From NCBI GenBank assembly GCA_017517305.1, contig JAFWZV010000024.1, positions 1 through 48,106 on the forward strand: a stretch of DNA of 48,106 nt. The letters run 5' to 3'. Both the position numbers and the translations under genes were made by a program. The notes below the pieces were generated by a model. It ran no database searches and was not told the origin of the DNA. It was given only the letters and a program-made list of their open reading frames with translations. This DNA comes from Lachnospiraceae bacterium. Lineage in GTDB: Bacteria; Bacillota; Clostridia; Lachnospirales; Lachnospiraceae. Shown here in pieces: positions 10,477 to 46,986 of this stretch; the first letter of the stretch is position 1, and every line of letters starts with the position of its first letter.

Positions 10477-10626
10477 TTACGGACTAACGAGCCTACATCT
10501 AACTCATGCTGCGCATGAGTTAGCTCGCTTTGTCGCGATATACATAAAACAAGAGGAGCACTTACTTTCAAGTAAACTTGAGTAAGTGCTCCTCTTGTTT
10601 TATGTGCATGGCTCGTTAGTCCGTAA
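10477..10626. repeat. Multi-arm inverted repeat between convergent genes
   Basis: The perfect 17-bp outer arms TTACGGACTAACGAGCC (10477-10493) and its complement (10610-10626) enclose two further hairpins. One is AACTCATGC-TGC-GCATGAGTT (10501-10521, extendable 2 bp). The other is a 25-bp perfect stem, 10542-10566 with 10581-10605, with an inner TCAAGT/ACTTGA pairing. The right arm covers the last codons and stop of the minus-strand gene. It probably acts as a two-way terminator, but the cruciform or three-way-junction form is unusual. Confidence 0.8.
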
Positions 10627-12622: not shown

Positions 12623-12754
12623 AATGACCTCCTAAGTGAATGTGTTTTATTGTTTTATCAACCTAGTGAGTTTACTACATATAAAAAATGAATAAAATAT
12701 CTTCCAAACCAACTGCGCTTTTTTACAAACGAAAATCTTGGTTATGATTTACTT

Positions 12755-12823: not shown

Positions 12824-14140
12824 ATGGGAGTAGGAAAGATGCATATTTTGATGAAAGCTGGTATGATTGCCACTGAATGTCTGAGTGTGATTGTTAATAT
12901 TTATACGGTACATAGAAAAACAATTAGTAAGGAAAAAAGCAACTTGTGGTTGCTTGTTACATATGTTACATATTACCTCATTATTTCTTATACGGGATTT
13001 CAAAATGTGGTTTTTGATTTGGTAATTCTTGTGATTATCTTGATTTGGTCATCGTTTGTTTTTAAATGCAGAAAAATAGAATTGATATTTAAAGATACGG
13101 TAGGATTAATATTAACGGGAGTACAGCAGGTATTTTTTGCGTTTATTACCGTAAGAATTATTTCGAAAGAGTGGATAAATGAACACTTAAGTTTGATTTA
13201 TTTTATGATGTCCATTTTTTCCTTTTTATTGGCATTGTTATTATATTGGTTGGTTATTGGTAGAAAAAGTAAAAAAGTTAAAGAGCAAAATGTTGGATCC
13301 AGACTATTCATTATACATGTGATATTAGCAACTGTAGCAATATTGACATTATTTTTGCTGAAGCAACGGTTTATTGAATTAGGAGGAATATATACAGATG
13401 CTTTTTTAATTTGTGGTTTCTTCTTGATTGTTGCCATATGCTTTGTTGTTATTAATATGAATACGGCAAAGAAACTGACCCAGAAGCAGCTAGAGCTGGA
13501 GATAAATAATAAATATATGAAAACCTATGAGGACCTAATACATGAGATTAGGCGTAAGCAGCATGATTACAAGAATCAGCTGTCGGCTTTATACAGTATG
13601 CATCTTGTTGCAAAGGATGATGAGCAGCTTGCTAAGCTTCACAAGGAGTATGGAGAAGAATTAGAGGAGAGAGATTTCTTTGATAGTATATTATATCAAT
13701 GTGACAACCCTGTGCTCTGTGGCTATGTATATAGTAAGTGTATGAAGGCCTACAGAGAGGGAGTAAATATTGCGCCTGCTTTAAGCTGGAGTGAAGGTGA
13801 CTTAACAATTCCACTACACAAGGTTATAGAGATGCTTGGAATACTCCTTGATAACGCTGTAGAATATCTTAAGGAAGCAGATTTTACTGATAAACAGGTT
13901 AAGCTTAATGTAAGCAAGGAACAAAGCAAGCTTACAGTGGAGGTTTGCAATACTTCCCTTTATCAAAGCTTCCAGGATATAGATAGTATGTTTAAGCTGG
14001 GATATAGCACTAAGGGAGAGGGAAGAGGTATAGGACTTGCCTCATTGAAGACTATAGTAAAGGAATATAATGGTAAGCTTTCGGTGGAGAATGAAGAGCT
14101 AGAGGATATAAATTGGCTAAATATTAAGGTGGAAATATAG
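12824..14140 (+). CDS. GHKL-type peptide receptor histidine kinase 1 (AgrC-like)
   Basis: A 438-residue AgrC/ComD-type receptor. Residues 1-210 hold about six hydrophobic helices with short loops (for example VVFDLVILVIILIWSSFVF, YFMMSIFSFLLALLLYWLVI, FLICGFFLIVAICFVVI). A coiled-coil linker follows, then the non-classical phosphoacceptor box RRKQHDYKNQ (H247), the ATP-binding N-box MLGILLDNAVEYL (N344) and the G-box KGEGRGIGLASL. The start could be ATG 12824 (AAGGA, 8 nt) or ATG 12839 (GGAGTAGGA just ahead); I kept the longer. It leads an operon with a LytTR regulator and a second kinase. Its cytoplasmic half is strongly similar to kinase 2 while the membrane half is diverged, as expected of receptors that share an output but sense different peptides. 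Confidence 0.9.
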   Translation: MGVGKMHILMKAGMIATECLSVIVNIYTVHRKTISKEKSNLWLLVTYVTYYLIISYTGFQNVVFDLVILVIILIWSSFVFKCRKIELIFKDTVGLILTGVQQVFFAFITVRIISKEWINEHLSLIYFMMSIFSFLLALLLYWLVIGRKSKKVKEQNVGSRLFIIHVILATVAILTLFLLKQRFIELGGIYTDAFLICGFFLIVAICFVVINMNTAKKLTQKQLELEINNKYMKTYEDLIHEIRRKQHDYKNQLSALYSMHLVAKDDEQLAKLHKEYGEELEERDFFDSILYQCDNPVLCGYVYSKCMKAYREGVNIAPALSWSEGDLTIPLHKVIEMLGILLDNAVEYLKEADFTDKQVKLNVSKEQSKLTVEVCNTSLYQSFQDIDSMFKLGYSTKGEGRGIGLASLKTIVKEYNGKLSVENEELEDINWLNIKVEI

Positions 14141-14153
14141 GTAGGGTGACTTT

Positions 14154-14867
14154 ATGAAGAAAATACTAATTTTAGAGGACAATATATCCCATATGAAGGG
14201 GATGGTTAAGATGATGGAGAGTATTCCTGAGGTTGAAATCTACGAGGCAACAAATATTAAGGATGCTCATGAACTGTTATTGTATAATGATTTTAATTTG
14301 TTTTTGATTGACATTATATTAGATTCTCAGAAGACAGGAGATGTGTCAGGTATAGAGTTTGTTAAGATGCTTAGGGAAAGTAAGAGATATCAGTTTATTC
14401 CTATTATATTTATTACTGCCCTTAAAGATCCCTACTTAAGCACATTTAGGGAGTTTCACTGCTACGCATACATAGAAAAGCCTGTAAAGGAGGAAGAGCT
14501 TTTAAAGACTGTGAAAGAAGCTTTGGAATATCCAGAGCCAAATGCTGCGCCGGAGACGGTTTTCTTCAGAAAGGATGGAGTGCTTTTCTCTGTAAAGGCA
14601 AAGGATATAACTCATATAACCGTGGGAAGAAGAGGTGTTAATGTATATACTACAAAGGATTGTATGAAGCTTTCCTACAAGCCTATATCAGAAATTTTAA
14701 AGGAGCTTAAATCAGACACATTTATCCAGTGTAGTAGAAGCACCATTGTAAATAGAGCCTACATAGAGAATGTGGACTTGTCAAATAGGTATCTTAAGCT
14801 GAAGAATAATGATGAAATAGTAGAGATTGGCTCTGTTATGAAGAAATACTTTAGACAGGGGTTGTAG
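14154..14867 (+). CDS. LytTR-family response regulator 1 (AgrA-like)
   Basis: A 237-residue regulator. The receiver domain (1-125) has the acidic pocket E8/D9, phosphoacceptor D53 in LFLIDIIL, and K in YIEKPVK. A LytTR DNA-binding domain (about 137-235) shows the typical FFRKDGVLFSVKAKDITHI opening, the CSRSTIVNRAYIENV core, and the KLKNNDEIVEIGS end. LytTR proteins such as AgrA, ComE and PlnC bind paired direct repeats and drive peptide-induced genes. It begins 13 nt after kinase 1 and ends 4 nt before kinase 2, so all three form one operon; either kinase could be its phosphodonor. The minus-strand agrBD promoter is a logical target (inference). Confidence 0.92.
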   Translation: MKKILILEDNISHMKGMVKMMESIPEVEIYEATNIKDAHELLLYNDFNLFLIDIILDSQKTGDVSGIEFVKMLRESKRYQFIPIIFITALKDPYLSTFREFHCYAYIEKPVKEEELLKTVKEALEYPEPNAAPETVFFRKDGVLFSVKAKDITHITVGRRGVNVYTTKDCMKLSYKPISEILKELKSDTFIQCSRSTIVNRAYIENVDLSNRYLKLKNNDEIVEIGSVMKKYFRQGL

Positions 14868-14871
14868 GGTT

Positions 14872-16164
14872 ATGATGTGGAAACATATATTTATTATTTG
14901 CCTTGAGTGTATAAGCACTTTTTTTAATATACATTTGGTGTACAAAGAGAAAATTAAGAAGGATAAGTGGCTCATTATATTTGCCGGAGTTTATGTATCA
15001 TATTTTGGTTTTCTGAGCTATTTGAGCCTTCCTGGATACATTGATATAATATCCCCTATTGCTATGGTTCTATGGGCAAAGAAGGTTTTTGGACGAAAAT
15101 GGTCTGAAACATTTATAAGAACAATTGTGTTTATGGTGTTTACTGCACTGGAACAGTCTCTTGTTATGGTGTTATTCATAATGGTGTTGAAGAGTAGAGG
15201 AATGGAAGGATTTACGGTTGGGGCATATATTGCCATGATACTTGTGGTACTGTTTGTATCCATACTTTTGTATTATTTGATTATGTATAAAAACATCACA
15301 ATGGTAATGAAAATAATAGTTAAGCATAGAATCAATTTGATTTATGTTGTTGCTTTGGCTTTGGTTGTGTGTTTGATTGCATTTATGAAGAGTTCATACA
15401 CTAGTCAGATGGATATATACGCTGAGGTATATATTATATGTGCTTTGGTTTTGTTTGTGGCGATAATCATAGTGTTAGGAGATATGAAAACCAAGAAAAA
15501 GCTATATCAAAAGCAGCTGGAATTAGAGCTTAATAATAAGTATATGAAAACCTATGAGGACTTAATCCTTGAAATTAGGCAAAAGCAGCATGATTACAAT
15601 AATCAGCTGTCGGCTCTTTATAGTATGCATCATGTGGCGGAGGATAAGGAACAGCTTGTTAAGATGCAAAGGGAGTATGTGGATGAGCTGGTAGATAAGG
15701 ATACTATGGATAAGATACTGTTTCAATGCGATAATCCAGTGATATGCGGATATATTTATAGCAAATGTAGAAAGGCTTATAGAGAGGGAATAGATATAGA
15801 AACTTCTTTGGAGCGTGATGGCGATTTCTCTGTCCCCTTACATAAGATTATAGAAATATTGGGAATATTACTAGATAATGCAGTGGAATACTTACAGGAA
15901 TCTGATTTTACTGACAGACGGATTAAACTTAGAATTGAGAAGAGATTAGAAAAAAATGTTATAGAAGTTGAGAACATTTCTGAATATTACAGCTTTGATC
16001 AGCTAAACAATATGTTTGAACCAGGTAATAGTACCAAGGGAGAAGGTCGCGGATTAGGTTTGTCTTCTTTGAAAACTATTGTTAAGGAGTATAAAGGAGA
16101 TGTGTTGGTTGAGGATATAGAAGCTGAAGGTAATAATTGGGTAAAAATAGTAGTTGTTATATAG
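14872..16164 (+). CDS. GHKL-type peptide receptor histidine kinase 2 (AgrC-like)
   Basis: A 430-residue receptor kinase with six or more membrane helices over residues 1-205, then linker, phosphoacceptor box RQKQHDYNNQ (H240), N-box ILGILLDNAVEYL and G-box KGEGRGLGLSSL. The stretch from the linker through the H-box (KQLELELNNKYMKTYED, QLSALYSMH) is nearly identical to kinase 1, pointing to a duplication, while the membrane sensor half differs. It overlaps nothing but starts only 4 nt after the regulator stop, so it is translated from the same transcript. It is the last gene of this operon: a terminator follows at 16184. The ligand is presumably a processed peptide. Confidence 0.9.
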   Translation: MMWKHIFIICLECISTFFNIHLVYKEKIKKDKWLIIFAGVYVSYFGFLSYLSLPGYIDIISPIAMVLWAKKVFGRKWSETFIRTIVFMVFTALEQSLVMVLFIMVLKSRGMEGFTVGAYIAMILVVLFVSILLYYLIMYKNITMVMKIIVKHRINLIYVVALALVVCLIAFMKSSYTSQMDIYAEVYIICALVLFVAIIIVLGDMKTKKKLYQKQLELELNNKYMKTYEDLILEIRQKQHDYNNQLSALYSMHHVAEDKEQLVKMQREYVDELVDKDTMDKILFQCDNPVICGYIYSKCRKAYREGIDIETSLERDGDFSVPLHKIIEILGILLDNAVEYLQESDFTDRRIKLRIEKRLEKNVIEVENISEYYSFDQLNNMFEPGNSTKGEGRGLGLSSLKTIVKEYKGDVLVEDIEAEGNNWVKIVVVI

Positions 16165-16219: not shown

Positions 16220-16250
16220 AAGTACATTTTTTATGTACCATAAGTACATT
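16220..16250 (+). promoter_or_regulatory. Candidate operator: three AGTACAT half-sites
   Basis: AAGTACATT occurs at 16220-16228 and at 16242-16250. ATGTAC (16333-equivalent position 16233-16238) pairs with the first copy as GTACAT-TTTTT-ATGTAC. The array sits 20-50 nt upstream of a TTGACG at 16269-16274. It is a good candidate autoregulatory site of the XRE protein encoded next (inference). Confidence 0.5.
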
Positions 16251-16315: not shown

Positions 16316-16708
16316 ATGTCAAAAAAGATAATATTAAAAGAGAATATGGAATCAGGCAGTAGGCTAAAGAGGATACGAGAGAATAGAAGGCTTACGCAGG
16401 AAGCCTTTGCTGATGAATTGGGGATATCAGTATCCGCCTACAAGAAGCTTGAAAGTGGAGAAAATGGCATATCCACCAAAAGATTGAGACAGCTAAAGAC
16501 TATGGATATTTCCTCTGATTTTATTTTGTATGGAGATAGAGGACATATAGAAAAACTAAAATTTGATGTGGATAACGGTTCTGAGATAGACAAGATAGGA
16601 ATTATGCTACAGTTTATTTTGGAGTTGATTAGAGATAGCGAAAAAGGTGGAAATGTAGAAAAAGAACAAATTATGGAGTTGGTTTCTAATATTTTCGATG
16701 AAGGATAG
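16316..16708 (+). CDS. XRE-family helix-turn-helix regulator
   Basis: The start is placed at ATG 16316, giving 130 residues. A frame upstream runs back to a TTG at 16256, but that would translate across the promoter-like TTGACG and has an unlikely hydrophobic start. Residues about 15-62 form an XRE/Cro-CI helix-turn-helix (RLKRIRENRRLTQEAFADELGIS, then SAYKKLESGENGIS). The C-terminal half is acidic and helical with no known ligand domain. It heads a second signalling operon: its stop is 3 nt before the LytTR regulator 2 gene. Regulators like this often control pheromone loci in Bacillota. The repeats at 16220-16250 suggest that it binds its own promoter. Confidence 0.85.
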   Translation: MSKKIILKENMESGSRLKRIRENRRLTQEAFADELGISVSAYKKLESGENGISTKRLRQLKTMDISSDFILYGDRGHIEKLKFDVDNGSEIDKIGIMLQFILELIRDSEKGGNVEKEQIMELVSNIFDEG

Positions 16709-16711
16709 TAT

Positions 16712-17431
16712 ATGAAGCGGATTTTGATTGTGGAAGACAATAAAACTCATATGGATGCATTGGGACAAATTGTTGGAGAAATACCTGATGTTACGATTGA
16801 TAAAGCATACAGTGCCCAGGAGGCATATGGTATGTTTTTTTCTCGTTCGTATAACTTGTTTTTAGTAGATATTATTCTTAACACAGATAAAAAGTTAGAC
16901 GTATCAGGGATGGAGCTTGTTCGTAAATTAAGGGAGCTAAAGCAATATCAATTCACTCCTATTATTTTTGTAACCACTCTAGAGGATCCAAAGCTTTGTG
17001 CATTTAAGGAATTGCATTGCTATGATTATATTGAAAAGCCCTTTTCAAAGGAACAGGTGAAAAATGTGGTGATGGAAGCATTGACATTTCCTGAGTCAAG
17101 GGAACCCAAAGAATTTGCTTACTTTAGAAAGGACGGAATACTGTATTCTGTAAAAATATCTAATATAAAGTATATTTTGGTAGATAGAAAGGGCGTAAAT
17201 ATCCATACCAAGGTGGATTGTCTAAGAATAGGATATCTATCTATGTCGGATATACTAATTGAACTGGATTCAGAAGATTTTATAAAATGTAGTCGTAATG
17301 CATTAGTAAACAAAAAATATATAGAGTATGTGGATTATACCAATGGATATCTGAAACTGCATGGTGATAATAATAGAATTGAAATAGGTTCTGTATTCAA
17401 GAAGAATTTACGTGAGAGAGGTCTGGTATGA
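16712..17431 (+). CDS. LytTR-family response regulator 2 (AgrA-like)
   Basis: A 239-residue regulator parallel to regulator 1: receiver with E8/D9, phosphoacceptor D53 in LFLVDIIL, a FVTTLEDPKL switch segment and YIEKPFS lysine, followed by a LytTR DNA-binding domain (about 137-237; YFRKDGILYSVKISNIKYI, KCSRNALVNKKYIEYV, RIEIGSVFKK). GAAGGA upstream sets the start. Its TGA overlaps the ATG of kinase 3 (ATGA), so the pair is translationally coupled and very probably cognate. Regulators 1 and 2 share the FRKDG and CSR-VN motifs, so the DNA-contacting part may recognise similar sites and could cross-talk (inference). Confidence 0.92.
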   Translation: MKRILIVEDNKTHMDALGQIVGEIPDVTIDKAYSAQEAYGMFFSRSYNLFLVDIILNTDKKLDVSGMELVRKLRELKQYQFTPIIFVTTLEDPKLCAFKELHCYDYIEKPFSKEQVKNVVMEALTFPESREPKEFAYFRKDGILYSVKISNIKYILVDRKGVNIHTKVDCLRIGYLSMSDILIELDSEDFIKCSRNALVNKKYIEYVDYTNGYLKLHGDNNRIEIGSVFKKNLRERGLV

Positions 17432-18690
17432 TATACGCTTTATTGATTTTGTTAGAATGTCTAACTTTACTACTTTGGATACACATATGGTTTAAGGAAA
17501 AGCTTAAGGAAAGCAATGGGCTAGGGAAATTTGTAGTTATATATGTGACATATTACTACATAGTATCAGCTTTAAAACTGGGATTTGTCATGGATATTTT
17601 AAGCGGGCTTGCTATATTTATCTGGATAATATATGAATTTAAGTTAAGGATTATAGAGTCTCTATTGAGATATATTATGTCTGTAATGTGTGTAAGTGTT
17701 ACTCAGTTAATTGCTTGGGAGATGGTTACTGGAATTTGTGATGTCAACAAATTAAGTGAAGCTACGGTCTATATTATAATTAGTGTTGTTAGCTTGTTAG
17801 GTGCATTGATGATATATGGCTGGTTTACAAATAGAAAGGATGAGCCACTCTTATTTACAGCTTACAGTGCTTTTTTGATTCTTTATATTGGGGGCGTAAT
17901 GCTGTTTATAAAGTATGACTATGAAAGTAATAATCAGGGCTATAGTCATTTGTATATCATATTATTTTTGTTACTAATATTTTTCTATACATTTATCTTA
18001 AAAAATATGAAAATCACATATGCTTTAGAACAGAAGAAATCAGAGCTTAGGGTTCGTGAAAAATATGAAGATGCATATGAACAGTTATTATTGGAATTTA
18101 GGCGAAAACAACATGATTATAGAAATCAAATAACTGCAATATATAGCATTGGATCACTGAATAAAGAAAAGGATGCCACTTTAATGCTACAGCAAGAATA
18201 TGGTGCAGAGCTTTTGGAGGCTGGAGAGTTTGACTCATTATTAACTAGTTGTGATAATTCTGTATTAGCAGGGTATGTTTATACAACGTGCAATCAAGCC
18301 AAAAGACTAGGAGTAAATGTGGAAGTAAAATTGTCTGGAATTCAGAAGGAATATAATATACCTACTCATGAAATTGTAGAAATCCTTGGTATATTGATAA
18401 ATAATGCATTAGAACACATAAAAGAATATGAAGATGAGAGAAAAGCATTAAGACTATATCTATATCAAAAATCGGGTAAGCTAAACATAGAGGTGTGGAA
18501 TAATTCAGAATATATTTCCTATGAAGAATTGCAGAAAATGTTTGAAATAAACTATAGTACTAAGGGAAATGGGCATGGTATAGGATTATACTCATTAAAA
18601 ACTATTGTAAACAAATATCATGGAGAACTTTTGGTTGAAAATGTGAAAGATAATAATAAAAATTGGATAAGATTTTTGGCTAAAATATAG
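17428..18690 (+). CDS. GHKL-type peptide receptor histidine kinase 3 (AgrC-like)
   Basis: A 420-residue receptor kinase, coupled by ATGA overlap to regulator 2. Six membrane helices over residues 1-195, then linker, phosphoacceptor box RRKQHDYRNQ (H229), N-box ILGILINNALEHI and G-box KGNGHGIGLYSL. It is more diverged from kinases 1 and 2 than they are from each other. It lies next to the convergent agrD/agrB genes, separated only by a terminator, which makes it a good candidate receptor for that pheromone (inference; kinases 1 and 2 are alternatives). Confidence 0.9.
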   Translation: MIYALLILLECLTLLLWIHIWFKEKLKESNGLGKFVVIYVTYYYIVSALKLGFVMDILSGLAIFIWIIYEFKLRIIESLLRYIMSVMCVSVTQLIAWEMVTGICDVNKLSEATVYIIISVVSLLGALMIYGWFTNRKDEPLLFTAYSAFLILYIGGVMLFIKYDYESNNQGYSHLYIILFLLLIFFYTFILKNMKITYALEQKKSELRVREKYEDAYEQLLLEFRRKQHDYRNQITAIYSIGSLNKEKDATLMLQQEYGAELLEAGEFDSLLTSCDNSVLAGYVYTTCNQAKRLGVNVEVKLSGIQKEYNIPTHEIVEILGILINNALEHIKEYEDERKALRLYLYQKSGKLNIEVWNNSEYISYEELQKMFEINYSTKGNGHGIGLYSLKTIVNKYHGELLVENVKDNNKNWIRFLAKI

Positions 18691-18698
18691 TGCGAATA

Positions 18699-18728
18699 GG
18701 CCACTACAGTTTAGTAGTGGCCCTTTTG
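18699..18728 (+). terminator. Terminator between kinase 3 and agrD
   Basis: GGCCACTAC (18699-18707) / GTAGTGGCC (18714-18722) with a six-base loop, followed by CTTTTG. It may also serve the facing agrBD transcript, although the T-run on that side is poor. Confidence 0.8.
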
Positions 18729-18742
18729 TATTATGTATGGAT

Positions 18743-18847
18743 TTATTCATCTGTAGATGGGTAATCTGGCTCACCAAAGAAACAGAAGCTATGAAGATCA
18801 CCAAATCTAGTAAATAATCCATTACATATCATACTCCAAAACCACAT
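18743..18847 (-). CDS. agrD: AgrD-like cyclic peptide pheromone precursor
   Basis: A 34-residue gene found by reading past agrB. AGGAGGTGA, which contains the agrB stop, lies 7 nt before its ATG, and only 4 nt separate the two genes. The peptide has an aromatic, amphipathic N-terminal part (MWFWSMICNGLFTRF), a short core and the C-terminal tail GEPDYPSTDE. The EPxxP tail matches the AgrB-recognition motif of AgrD (DEPKVP in Staphylococcus aureus). If AgrB cuts before GEPDYP as in that system, the exported peptide ends ...HSFCFF. The ring residue expected five from the end is Ser20, with Cys22 the alternative. The family call is from motif and context; no homologue search was possible. Confidence 0.8.
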   Translation of the reverse strand: MWFWSMICNGLFTRFGDLHSFCFFGEPDYPSTDE

Positions 18848-18851
18848 AAAC

Positions 18852-19370
18852 TCACCTCCTAATCCTAGCTACCACAAGCTGGGTAGCATGTAATATTAAT
18901 ATCCAAAACCCTATGTTGATATAGGTATTGGGTTTAAAATATGTCTGAAATATTATGAATAACAATATGATAAATGCCACGTGAACTTTAGCGTGATAGA
19001 TTGCTTCTTTGCTAAGAGCTGGCCTTGTTCTGGATAAAATAGGTGTATATATTATGGTAATGATTCCACATAGAATGCAGATTGTAGTGGTTATAAGCTT
19101 AGTGAAAAATAGTTTGCTACCTAAAGCTATACCAGATGATAAAATGACAAAACTGATTATAAGGCATCCAAAATAAGTCTTACAATGTAGTCCGCCACTA
19201 TACATTCTGAATATAGTAAGGAAGAAAATTCCGCAGAAAAATTCTTTGTGAAGTCCTAGAATGTAAAAGATAATAAAGAATATAAGAGCTTTGCTTAAAT
19301 CTGATAAAAACCCCTTTAGGTAGAATATAAGTATAGCCTTCTCGGATTTTGTTAGTTCAGTTTTTGTCAT
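18852..19370 (-). CDS. agrB: AgrB-like membrane peptidase processing the AgrD peptide
   Basis: AgrB is a membrane cysteine endopeptidase that trims AgrD and closes its thiolactone or lactone ring. This 172-residue protein has the family size, several hydrophobic helices, and the active-site block FRMYSGGLHCKTYFGC. H62 and C69 are spaced seven residues apart, exactly as the catalytic His77 and Cys84 of S. aureus AgrB. The start chosen is ATG 19370 after AGGTGA; a GTG at 19379 in frame overlaps that ribosome site. agrD follows after 4 nt. The genes face the kinase/regulator operons, an inverted layout compared with the agrBDCA order of staphylococci. Confidence 0.93.
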   Translation of the reverse strand: MTKTELTKSEKAILIFYLKGFLSDLSKALIFFIIFYILGLHKEFFCGIFFLTIFRMYSGGLHCKTYFGCLIISFVILSSGIALGSKLFFTKLITTTICILCGIITIIYTPILSRTRPALSKEAIYHAKVHVAFIILLFIIFQTYFKPNTYINIGFWILILHATQLVVARIRR

Positions 19371-19422: not shown

Positions 19423-19545
19423 AGAAATGATCTGGAAGACGAAATAAGTGATATAGGGGATGAATTAAGGGATTCTTACAGAAATACTTGTGTAATGATG
19501 ATTGGTTGCCTTGCACATGCCATTGGTTTGATGAATGATATATAG
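19423..19545 (+). pseudogene. Possible gene remnant upstream of agrB
   Basis: Between agrB and the kinase terminator the plus strand keeps one open frame without a start codon, read as RNDLEDEISDIGDELRD followed by SYRNTCVMMIGCLAHAIG and ending LMNDI at a TAG (19543-19545). The composition looks coding (acidic helix then hydrophobic stretch), but a TGA lies immediately upstream and no ribosome site is seen. It may be the tail of a decayed gene. I do not recognise the family, and chance is not excluded. Confidence 0.3.
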
Positions 19546-19619: not shown

Positions 19620-20777
19620 TTATTTTCCTATGTGGTAAAAGCTTAAGGTGAAACAAGTCCATTTTCCAATCTGACTACTTACGGTAATATCTCCACCCTG
19701 ACCTTCCACGATTCCCTTGGATAGAGAAAGTCCGATGCCGATGCTATTTTCATTCACATCAGATTTTGCTCTGTAGAAGCGCTTAAATATTTTGCTTTGA
19801 GCCTCAGGCTCAATGCCAAGACCGTAGTCCTTAATATGAATCATAGTCATAACAGCTGTAGTTTCAACACTAAGCTCTATAGTGCTGCCATTTGGTGCAT
19901 ACTCAGTTGCGTTTTTTAGTATATTTGTTAGGGCTTCGGCTAACCAATCTCTGTCGTGGTTAAGTATAAGCTTATCATCGCAGCTTATGCTTATGGTTTG
20001 CTGTTTGGCTTCACTTAGCATAGAAACATTTTGAACAGCCAGTTGCAGGGTTGGCAGTAGCTCCTGATTTTTCATAACAAACTCTATAGCACCTGATTCA
20101 AGTCTTGCCAGCTTAAGTAAGGAAAGTATTAACCACTCCATACGGGAAAGCTGTCCTCCCATAAGAGAGAGCATCTCCTGTTTTTTCTTGTCACTGACGT
20201 TAGGGTTACATAGCAAATCCTGATATATGGTAAGGGTTGCCAGAGGAGTTTTAAGCTGATGAGAGATGTCAGCTATAAGATCTTGTAAAAATTCCTTTTC
20301 CTTAAGCTCCTTATCCCTACTTTGCTTTATGGCGGTTACCATCTTAGTATAAGTAAAGTAAAATTGACTGATATCTCCTTCAGTGAAATTGCTAAAATCA
20401 GGGGTACTGTAGTCGCCGTCTAAGACATCTTCTGAGCTTTGACTTATGGTTGTAATGGCAGACATAGGGACATTGTATAACTTAAGTCCAAGTATATAGC
20501 CAGCCACTCCTAATATTGCAAATATTCCGTAGCAGCTCACAAATAAAGATAGCTTGTCTTCGTTGATGTCTTGGCTGTACTCGGCTGGAGAATAGGTAAT
20601 TCTTCCAGTCTCAGCCAAGCTGGTGTAATCCTGGTCAGAGTCTATTATCTCCTTGTGATATATCAAGTCTATTTCATTTATGTAATGAGATATGGAAAAA
20701 TACAAAATCACACCACATAATAAAAAGGCTAGTACATATATTATTGTATAATTGCGAAACTCTTTGTTCTTAAACAT
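19620..20777 (-). CDS. Membrane sensor histidine kinase (HAMP-like, PhoR type)
   Basis: A 385-residue kinase with membrane helices at about 11-30 and 77-97 and only about 45 residues outside between them. A HAMP-like linker (about 98-155) follows, then a HisKA domain with H173 in SHQLKTPLA and a HATPase with N-box LTNILKNATEYA and G-box NSIGIGLSLSKGI. The regulator gene lies 17 nt upstream on the same strand and is its partner. The pair is divergent from an ATPase/permease operon that it probably controls: small-loop kinases next to FtsX-type ABC exporters are common in antimicrobial-peptide response systems, where the transporter helps sensing (family knowledge; substrate here unknown). Confidence 0.93.
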   Translation of the reverse strand: MFKNKEFRNYTIIYVLAFLLCGVILYFSISHYINEIDLIYHKEIIDSDQDYTSLAETGRITYSPAEYSQDINEDKLSLFVSCYGIFAILGVAGYILGLKLYNVPMSAITTISQSSEDVLDGDYSTPDFSNFTEGDISQFYFTYTKMVTAIKQSRDKELKEKEFLQDLIADISHQLKTPLATLTIYQDLLCNPNVSDKKKQEMLSLMGGQLSRMEWLILSLLKLARLESGAIEFVMKNQELLPTLQLAVQNVSMLSEAKQQTISISCDDKLILNHDRDWLAEALTNILKNATEYAPNGSTIELSVETTAVMTMIHIKDYGLGIEPEAQSKIFKRFYRAKSDVNENSIGIGLSLSKGIVEGQGGDITVSSQIGKWTCFTLSFYHIGK

Positions 20778-20794
20778 AATCTTCCAATCCTGGC

Positions 20795-21481
20795 TTAGTC
20801 AGCCTGTTTATCTGATATCATATATCCCACACCTCTTACAGTTTGGATGTATTCCTTGTCACTGCCTAGCTTTTCTCTAAGTCTTTTTACATACACAGAA
20901 AGTGTATTATCATCTACAAAATCACCGTCTATATCCCACAACTGCTCTAGCAAAGTGCTTCTGGTCAGGGTTTTATTTTTGTTTTTTAGCAAGGTGGTGA
21001 AAAGTCTGAATTCACTAGGGGTAAGATTAATATTTACACCATCCTTTGTAACCTTGTGTCCGGTCAAATCAATGCGAAATGAGCCGAAGACCATAACCTC
21101 TCCTGAAGAGCTGTTAACCTGACTTCTTCTAATATTAGCCTTTATTCTTGATATAAGCTCCCTTACTCTAAAAGGCTTAGTGACATAATCATCAGCGCCT
21201 ACCTCAAGTCCCTGGATAACATTTACCTCCTGGTCAAGTGCGGTAAGGAAAATAACAGGTAAGGTAAAGCCTTTCTCTCTAATGCCTTTGCAAAATGTAT
21301 ATCCATCTCCATCAGGAAGATTGGCATCCAAAAGAACAAGAGAAAAGCTGTCGCTGTTAAGCTTGGCATCTGCATCCTTTAGGGTTGTTACATGAGTAAC
21401 CTCAAAACCTTCAGTCTCTATGGCAAAGCTGGTTGCCATAGCAAGAGGCATATCATCTTCTATTAAAAGTAATTTATCCAT
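20795..21481 (-). CDS. OmpR-family response regulator
   Basis: The start is placed at ATG 21481 because AGGAG lies 6 nt ahead; an in-frame ATG nine codons earlier lacks a ribosome site. The 228-residue product has a receiver domain (E8-D10 acidic cluster, phosphoacceptor D52 in LVLLDANLPDGDG, LTA switch, VTKPFR lysine) and a winged-helix domain ending with SVYVKRLREKLG and TVRGVGYMI. It forms an operon with the kinase downstream. The palindrome TCTTACA-AAAA-TGTAAGA in the divergent region (21651-21668) is a likely target, controlling the ABC operon on the other strand (inference). Confidence 0.94.
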   Translation of the reverse strand: MDKLLLIEDDMPLAMATSFAIETEGFEVTHVTTLKDADAKLNSDSFSLVLLDANLPDGDGYTFCKGIREKGFTLPVIFLTALDQEVNVIQGLEVGADDYVTKPFRVRELISRIKANIRRSQVNSSSGEVMVFGSFRIDLTGHKVTKDGVNINLTPSEFRLFTTLLKNKNKTLTRSTLLEQLWDIDGDFVDDNTLSVYVKRLREKLGSDKEYIQTVRGVGYMISDKQAD

Positions 21482-21650
21482 AGTAAGCTCCTGTTTATAA
21501 AGTCCCAATATTTCATGCTTAAATTCAATTTAATCTGGCATTGGAGATTGGGCTATCACGGTTTACGTTGCCACATAATGTTTGTATTGCATAACAAGTA
21601 CATTTTAACAGTTTTGGATAATATTTTAAACAATTAAGTAAAAAATACTT

Positions 21651-21821: not shown

Positions 21822-22505
21822 ATGGAAATTATTAAAACAAGCAAGCTTTGTAAATATTATGGAGAGGGAGAAAAGCAGGTTAAGGCAACAGATGAAATTG
21901 ATTTAACTATTAATAAGGGAGAGTTCGTTGCAATCGTGGGAGCATCTGGTTCTGGTAAGTCAACCTTACTTCATCTTCTTGGCTGCTTGGATAAGCCTAC
22001 CAGTGGAGATATATTTATCGATGGAGAAAATATTGCCAAGTATAATGACGAGGCTTTGGCTATGACTAGAAGAAGAAAGATAGGCTTTGTGTTCCAGCAG
22101 TATAATCTGATTCCTGTGCTTACAGTTAGAGAGAATATTGAGATGCCGGTTTTACTTGATGGTAAGAAGCCGGACAAGGAGTACATAGACGACTTAATTG
22201 AGATGTTAGGTCTTACTAAGAGACAAAAGCATCTTCCTAATCAGCTTAGTGGTGGTCAGCAGCAGAGAGTGTCTATTGCAAGAGCTTTGGCAAACAAGCC
22301 TGCCATTATATTTGCAGATGAGCCAACAGGAAACCTTGACAGAAAAAATGGTCTTGAGGTTGTGGAAACTCTTAAGGCTTCTGCAAAGAAGTATCAGCAG
22401 ACCTTAGTACTTATTACTCATGAGATGAGCGTTGCTTCTGCAGCAGACAGAGTAATAGAAATATCTGACGGTAAGATAGTAAGTGACTCGGGTAACGCTG
22501 AGTAA
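21822..22505 (+). CDS. ABC transporter ATP-binding protein (MacB/BceA type)
   Basis: A 227-residue ATPase with Walker A GASGSGKST (40-48), Q-loop FVFQQYN, signature LSGGQQQRV (142-150), Walker B IIFADEPTGNL and switch His in ITHE. It belongs to the same branch as the ATPase at 660. GAAAGGGAGA precedes the ATG. The two-domain permease starts 60 nt downstream and is its partner. Divergent neighbours are a regulator/kinase pair with an operator-like palindrome between, suggesting induction by the transporter's substrate or by cell-envelope stress (inference). Confidence 0.94.
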   Translation: MEIIKTSKLCKYYGEGEKQVKATDEIDLTINKGEFVAIVGASGSGKSTLLHLLGCLDKPTSGDIFIDGENIAKYNDEALAMTRRRKIGFVFQQYNLIPVLTVRENIEMPVLLDGKKPDKEYIDDLIEMLGLTKRQKHLPNQLSGGQQQRVSIARALANKPAIIFADEPTGNLDRKNGLEVVETLKASAKKYQQTLVLITHEMSVASAADRVIEISDGKIVSDSGNAE

Positions 22506-45727: not shown

Positions 45728-46986
45728 ATGAAGAGAGAAAAGCCAAGAACAAGGACAAAGGACAATGTAATATATATGGAATCCAGTAAGGAAACCAAGG
45801 AGGCTAATGATAGAAGGGAGCAGCTTACTAGAAGCCAAAGAAAGCTAGCTATGTCCTTTTTGCGTTGGTTGCCATAGTTGCTGTACTTGTGATTTCATTT
45901 TTGTTTAATAAGCAGTATAAGGGATACAAAATTGTAGATAGCAATATAACTGATTATGAGAACACAGCGAATTATATTGAGTTTTGTAGTGGTTTGCTTA
46001 AATACACCCCTGATGGAGTATCCTACATAGATGCAAATGGTAATACAGTTTGGTCTGCGGGAGTTGATATGAAACAGCCAGTTGCTGTGGTAAGTGGCAA
46101 ATATGTAGCAATAGCCGACCTTAATGGAAATGCAGTTGGTGTATTCAATAATGAGGGCCCAGTTAGCAATGTTACTATGCCTTATAAAATATGTGATGTG
46201 GATGTGGCTAATCAGGGTGCATTTGCGGTTGTGCTTGAAAGCGAAGAGACAAACTATATCAACCTTTATAATAAGAAGGGTGAAATAGTGTACGAAATTC
46301 AGACAACCATTGATAAAAGTGGATATCCTTTAGATATAAGTATTTCTGATGATGGCAAGAAGCTCTTCACAAGCTATCTTAATATTGAAAATGGTAATGC
46401 TCAAAATAGCTTGGCAGCCTATAATTTTGGAGATGTGGGTCAGAATAGTAATGCGGATCGTATGGTGGGTGGCTATAAGTTTGATGGAGAAGTAATTCCA
46501 AAGGTGGAATTTATTGATAATGATACTGTGGCTGCATTTGGTACGCATACTATTACTGTATATGCCATGAAGGAGAAACCTACTGATAAAGCCAGTATTG
46601 AATTAAAGGAAGATATTCGAAGTGTGTTTTATAATGAAAAATACATAGGAGTAGTTCAAAATTACACTGGTGAAGGTAATCACAAATATGTAGTGAAAGT
46701 TTATAATCTGAACGGAAATCAGGAGTTTTCAAGCTATATTGATTTTGACTACGATAATATATATGCTGCATCCAAGGAGATAATCATAACTGGAGGAACG
46801 AATTGCCTTATCTATAGAACTAATGGAAGTGTAAAGTTTGAAGGACAAATGGCTGGCAATATTATGAGTATGGTTCCAAATAGTAACAGCTTGGAGTATG
46901 TGGTGGTGTATGATGATTTGACAGAAACTATAAAGCTTAAGTTAGGAAAGACTGAAGAAATAGATATATCAGATGAGGAAAAGTAA
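45728..46986 (+). pseudogene. DUF5711-like membrane protein, interrupted by a 1-nt frameshift
   Basis: An ATG at 45728 (CGGAG before it) opens a basic N-terminus (MKREKPRTRTKDNVIYM...) that runs to RKLAMSFLRWLP and a stop at about 45884-45889. The rest of the protein, starting in the membrane helix (FALVAIVAVLVISFLF) and continuing through a beta-propeller-like outer domain, is in another frame up to 46986. Adding one T to the T5 run at 45857-45861 joins them as AMSFFALVAIVAV, giving a normal DUF5711-like protein of about 419 residues (basic tail, one helix, propeller). So it is a true single-base loss, a phase-variable tract, or a sequencing error. Family function is unknown; it lies in the LysM-CvpA operon. 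Confidence 0.75.

Follow-up and report, generated by a model that had tools for sequence, protein, structure and literature searches.

The window, that is, the whole stretch of 48,106 nucleotides analysed here (Lachnospiraceae bacterium, GCA_017517305.1, contig JAFWZV010000024.1), carries on its minus strand an agrB gene (18852..19370) of 172 codons, counted from its ATG, which encodes a processing membrane peptidase. Its product matches Pfam PF04647 with 83.5 bits, above the cut-off of 23, and contains H62 and C69, seven apart and invariant in the AgrBs aligned (7/7), which we take to be the catalytic His and Cys; a search of solved structures returned no AgrB relative at E<=1. On the same strand, beginning 4 nt past the agrB stop, lies an agrD-like gene of 34 codons plus stop (18743..18847), recognised as an open reading frame and through the corresponding frames in relatives, whose product ends in GEPDYPSTDE and would be a pheromone precursor. 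The sequence AGGAGGTGA (18852..18860, minus strand) both ends agrB, with two Arg codons and the stop, and serves as the ribosome-binding site of agrD. Within the peptide's tail, G-E-P-D-Y-P (18758..18775, minus strand) is presumably the element recognised by AgrB. The two genes, the 4-nt gap, the H62/C69 pair and the C-terminal end had been described in a first-pass annotation, and all of them are present in the sequence.

When the pair was compared with family models, as that annotation had advised for the peptide, AgrB was recognised by PF04647 and the peptide by none: no Pfam or NCBIfam model matched its 34 residues at E<=10, and the cut-off of NCBIfam TIGR04223 (AgrD) was not reached (0 families at E<=10). 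Like its TIGR04223 equivalents, the gene sits beside agrB; unlike theirs, its product gives no match. A second copy of the peptide was not found in its own genome. Two points count against reading it as an Agr-type pheromone: no AgrD model recognises it, and its leader ahead of the predicted ring has only 19 residues. The genome holds two further agr sites. First, at L001 (1164-1322 and 1489-2124), a Cys-type AgrD lies upstream of agrB and scores 26.6 bits against TIGR04223, above the cut-off of 19. Second, at L003 (1492-1857), the genome's third agrB stops after about 121 residues, and the next frame is unlike AgrB.

Convergent with agrBD is an agrA-agrC run on the plus strand (16712-18690). 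It is headed by an XRE-type regulator (16316..16708; Pfam HTH_3) and consists of an AgrA-type response regulator (16712..17431; Pfam Response_reg and LytTR) and an AgrC-type sensor kinase (17428..18690), the likely receptor, with a hydrophobic N-terminal half, a GHKL domain (Pfam HATPase_c_5) and an HDYRNQ box. Between the facing agrD and agrC ends, a hairpin at 18699..18722 (-19.2 kcal/mol, z -5.6) is a probable terminator. Upstream of the XRE-type regulator, at 16222-16249, an inverted repeat GTACAT-N5-ATGTAC with a further GTACAT is possibly that regulator's own operator. Ahead of this run on the same strand, Pfam and NCBIfam matches define a second AgrC-AgrA-AgrC module (HK1, RR1 and HK2; 12824..16164) without an agrBD of its own. 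Its two kinases, at 12824 and 14872, share 45% identity, as against 34-37% with the kinase at 17428.

Conservation and loss of the small frame in the genus

In the genus (37 genomes, counting the own one), AgrB matches occurred in 19 at E<=0.001 and in eight at E<=1e-20, namely the own genome, six relatives with a complete agrB (46-59% identical to the window AgrB) and one whose agrB is truncated at a contig end. The first-pass annotation had suggested looking for the small frame in related genomes. Directly 3' of agrB, five of the six complete relatives have a frame of 32-34 codons with S-x-x-x-x-G-E-P-x-x-P near its end; the sixth, L006, lacks the small frame behind agrB. AGGAGGT is kept in all five relatives with agrD, and L006 has AGGATAT instead.

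A core of 12 codons, compared among six sequences (15 pairs), gave dN of 0.07-0.30 over all pairs, and dS of 1.4-2.7 in four of them, being saturated and not computable in the other 11. Synonymous codon differences outnumber nonsynonymous ones in 14 of the 15 pairs, the exception being the own genome against L010, with 3 against 5. By dN, dS and codon differences across this core, the agrD frame is under purifying selection. Judged from these comparisons, the frame is a real gene and more than chance, and the loci of the relatives bear out the earlier proposal of an Agr-type pair with an EPxxP tail and an easily missed small gene; the peptide would be produced and act as a signal.

Loss does occur in the genus, as L051 (5313-7825), the same genome and place as L006, retains agrB and lacks both agrD and the adjoining agrC/agrA pair. 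At the site of the missing pair, frames resembling, by eye, another kinase and regulator are present. This precedent is what would favour a decaying or silent pair in the window genome, with the 34-codon frame as a remnant. We consider this very improbable, since the frame, its ribosome-binding site, the hairpin, the kinase and the regulator are all intact in the window, and the selection on the core between species also argues against a remnant.

An AgrC/AgrA-type pair faces agrB in five of the six relatives with complete agrB, and a counterpart of the XRE-type regulator adjoins the cassette in L049, L050, L052 and L053, not in L048. Leaving aside the genome with the cut agrB, the kinase at 17428 has matches at E<=1e-40 in 6 of the 37 genomes, exactly those in which agrB and agrD were seen. 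The convergent pair 16712-18690 is likely to be the pheromone receptor system. At the same threshold and with the same query, each of the five other genomes with a match has one kinase.

The residue that closes the ring

To the six genus peptides we added those of a family search, in which a profile of seven genus AgrBs was run against 397 genomes and found 18 at E<=1e-20, own included. At 17 of 17 other loci, which come from other genera of the family, an AgrD-like frame lies at, overlapping or behind the agrB end, recognised by motif in six and by eye in 11. Together with L056, these make a set of 24 peptides. In one case (L032 1468-2055, and L074), a single open frame at a contig end encodes AgrB with a Ser-type AgrD as its in-frame tail; about 127 nt of this contig end recur on another contig, and the joining may be a true fusion or an assembly effect.

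The window peptide has a single Cys near its tail, Cys22, and a Ser two residues before it. The obvious guess, that Cys22 is the ring residue, is unlikely on the alignments, in which the Ser20 column is conserved instead: all six genus peptides have Ser at position 20, and Cys at position 22 is not kept among them. In the set of 24, the position six residues ahead of the tail Glu is occupied by Ser in 22 peptides and by Cys in the other two (L042 and L044). At the position of Cys22, three peptides have Cys and the rest Leu, Trp, Ile or Phe. The four positions that follow the ring residue carry hydrophobic residues or Cys, apart from a single Thr. As for the tail, Glu is found in 24/24, a Pro next to it in 14/24 and the last Pro in 22/24. 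Three of the Ser peptides are less clear, as a Cys stands close before the Ser, directly so in L036 and L041 and two before in L034; the adjoining Cys of L036 and L041 counts against closure on Ser.

Because a side-chain nucleophile for AgrB predicts precisely such a Ser/Cys-only column, Ser20 would be the conserved ring position, and the signal most likely a lactone and not a thiolactone. In the alignments a Ser replaces the Cys at the ring position, a feature of the Ser-lactone pheromones of the Staphylococcus intermedius group and GBAP. Spacing points in the same direction. The S. pseudintermedius lactone precursor contains RIPTSTGFF followed by DEPEIPAELLEEDK, and the window's S-F-C-F-F G-E-P-D-Y-P reproduces its arrangement of Ser, four residues ending in F-F, and x-E-P-x-x-P. 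From this shared spacing and the Ser/Cys column, we read the product as a predicted five-residue lactone, S20-F21-C22-F23-F24 (18776..18790, minus strand).

Two other chemistries have to be weighed. The first is a thiolactone closed on Cys22, with either the three residues C-F-F in the ring or a wider ring that takes in Gly25 and beyond; Cys is the usual ring residue of Agr peptides, and Cys22 is the sole candidate of its kind near the tail. The same residue counts against the lactone, within whose ring it could react or compete. Nevertheless, a thiolactone seems to us improbable, given the three Cys among 24 peptides in this column against the exclusive Ser and Cys of the other. We also know of no precedent for a three-residue ring. 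The second is that processing of the Ser-type AgrD releases a linear or head-to-tail peptide, or that its ring rearranges afterwards, as thiolactone pentamers of Listeria are reported to do, giving homodetic cyclopeptides (PMC11297923). To this we likewise give little weight, in that the Ser/Cys-only column suggests that the side-chain nucleophile matters, which goes against linear or head-to-tail release. The serine-closed lactone S-F-C-F-F remains, on the alignments, the most likely pheromone of the window.

Ser-type precursors beyond the genus

In a tree of 49 AgrBs, the branch that includes the window AgrB has 26 rows and support 97/84; 23 of the rows go with Ser, two with Cys and one lacks agrD. 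For the tree as a whole, at least seven Ser/Cys changes are required by the well-supported branches, on labels that were assigned by hand and of which four are debatable. To sample with less bias, we ran Pfam AgrB on 60 family genomes and obtained 42 matches in 21 of them; 39 of the matches lie outside the own genome. We read 28 of these 39 as loci, two of which, L100 and L101, coincide with L038 and L045. With the ring residue placed six positions ahead of the tail Glu or Gln, it is Cys in nine, Ser in eight and unclear in three (L098, L103 and L108), and eight loci have no assignable neighbour. At L103, L108 and L098 there are AgrD-like peptides with Thr, or adjacent Ser and Cys, around the ring position. 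As read from these loci, Ser-type precursors are common in the family and extend beyond the window's own branch.

A family-wide search with an AgrD profile gave matches at E<=0.01 in 23 of 397 genomes. Its 17 strong matches (E below 1e-8) lend no independent support, because all 17 are at loci used to build the profile. At class level it matched 3 of 391 genomes at E<=0.001, own included, the other 390 comprising some from the same family. The two non-own matches belong to other families and both have Ser; for one of them, L080, a motif search found no adjoining AgrB. TIGR04223 matches only two of the 23 branch peptides at E<=10, weakly (best E 0.0052), and one of the 23 matches a model of no relevance, a zinc finger (E 0.12). 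The locus is thus an Agr-type system with a short Ser-type AgrD that the models tested miss, and, since the AgrD model tested misses most genes of the branch, signalling in gut Clostridia has probably been undercounted.

Lactone pheromones as such are already known. For comparison we used PMC3673130, PMC4774685, PMC12312760, PMC7478625, PMC7278147, PMC4916163 and PMC2766830; there, Cys of Agr peptides is said to be replaced by Ser 'in some cases', and the lactone cases named in an agr primer are S. pseudintermedius and Enterococcus faecalis. The agr system of the S. intermedius group (S. pseudintermedius AIP RIPTSTGFF) resembles the window in its AgrB and small AgrD and in the residue spacing given above, the lactone being described there and predicted here. 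It differs in an AgrD of 45 residues against 34 and in the order agrBDCA, whereas agrBD of the window is convergent to agrA-agrC. Fsr of E. faecalis (FsrB/FsrD, GBAP) shares a Ser-closed lactone, again predicted here, an AgrB-type enzyme and FsrC/FsrA partners, but its ring has nine residues against the predicted five, and fsrD lies within fsrB in another frame, unlike the separate agrD of the window. Clostridial agr systems are alike in that agrBD and agrCA can form separate operons; unlike the window, they are described, in the text available, with six-residue rings and peptides without exocyclic tails, and a serine ring residue is not mentioned in it. Our searches, limited to open-licence literature and for this reason weak evidence, found no report of a Ser-type AgrD in Lachnospiraceae, and the literature searched contained neither a Ser-dominated AgrB branch in this family nor a diverged locus with an extra receptor module.

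Control, divergence of the cassette and the proposed circuit

A tandem repeat with a 21-nt period lies upstream of agrB (19502..19528, minus strand), and a copy of it upstream of the second module (12707..12733, plus strand); both, found by pattern search, are putative sites of a LytTR regulator. LytTR regulators are described as binding 9-bp repeats with 12-bp spacers, and the period of 21 nt fits this spacing. The pattern, AACSAR-N15-AACSAR, was picked by eye from these upstream regions; it occurs twice in the 48-kb window against 0.06 expected, and 1 of 100 shuffles reaches two. Genome-wide it is not enriched, with eight occurrences against 16 for the reversed control, and the other six copies lie inside frames of 231 to 800 codons (five) or overlap a 92-codon frame (one). 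A slightly looser pattern is found upstream of agrB in L048, L050 and L052, and also inside the window gene at 46797; in three of six relatives, L049, L051 and L053, the region upstream of agrB gave no match to it. Given a pattern chosen by eye and no genome-wide enrichment, the repeat is only suggestive as a regulator site, and the case for it rests on position, because both window copies precede agr genes.

The cassette occupies the same site in four of the six relatives (L048, L049, L050 and L051). In these four, the two-component genes at 19620-21508 encode proteins 71-95% identical to those of the window, and the ABC-transporter gene at 21822 is 97-99.6% identical. On the other flank, the gene at 10616 is present in L048 (99.2%) and L050 (99.5%); L049 has no match to it within 3.4 kb past the cassette, and L051 ends before it. 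L053 has none of these flanking genes within 6 kb, and on the transporter side the coverage of L052 extends over 1.7 kb only. A sequence of roughly 35-57 nt from window 10477-10548 recurs several times in the related locus L048 (7609-7769), downstream of the 10616 gene. Within the cassette itself, identities in the four fall to 47-59% for AgrB, 35-44% for the kinase and 48-57% for the regulator, the latter two being absent in L051. With so diverged a cassette beside far better conserved flanks, the site resembles a pherotype locus whose alleles differ strongly, the arrangement for which staphylococcal agr is known.

We propose the following circuit. The 34-codon agrD would yield a short precursor, whose G-E-P-x-x-P tail would be recognised by AgrB, a membrane cysteine peptidase; the enzyme would cleave after Phe24 and join the carbonyl of this residue to the side chain of Ser20, releasing a hydrophobic five-residue lactone, perhaps with a few leader residues ahead of the ring. 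Once exported, the peptide would be sensed by the convergent kinase, which would phosphorylate the AgrA-type regulator, and this in turn would bind the tandem repeat upstream of agrB, leading to more signal in a positive feedback, and also the copy upstream of the second module. As a whole, from agrD precursor and Ser20 lactone to convergent AgrC/AgrA and positive feedback, and thus as quorum sensing, we consider this reading probable with good confidence. The second module, in turn, is a candidate listener for foreign signals.

A wider reading, which we offer tentatively and hold to be rather doubtful, is that Ser-lactones are the ordinary chemistry of this AgrB branch across many genera of Lachnospiraceae, one residue having switched repeatedly between Ser and Cys, that the locus is a fast-diversifying pherotype locus in the genus, and that this genome has gained a further receptor module without a peptide, 12824-16164, which hears other strains. 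A mostly-Ser AgrB branch of gut bacteria with natural Cys versions would offer a direct way to ask what sets the acceptance of Ser or Cys, and a Ser-dominated branch would also allow asking whether lactone signals act differently in the gut. In addition, a diverged cassette beside near-identical genes would provide a handle on the evolution of pherotypes in commensals.
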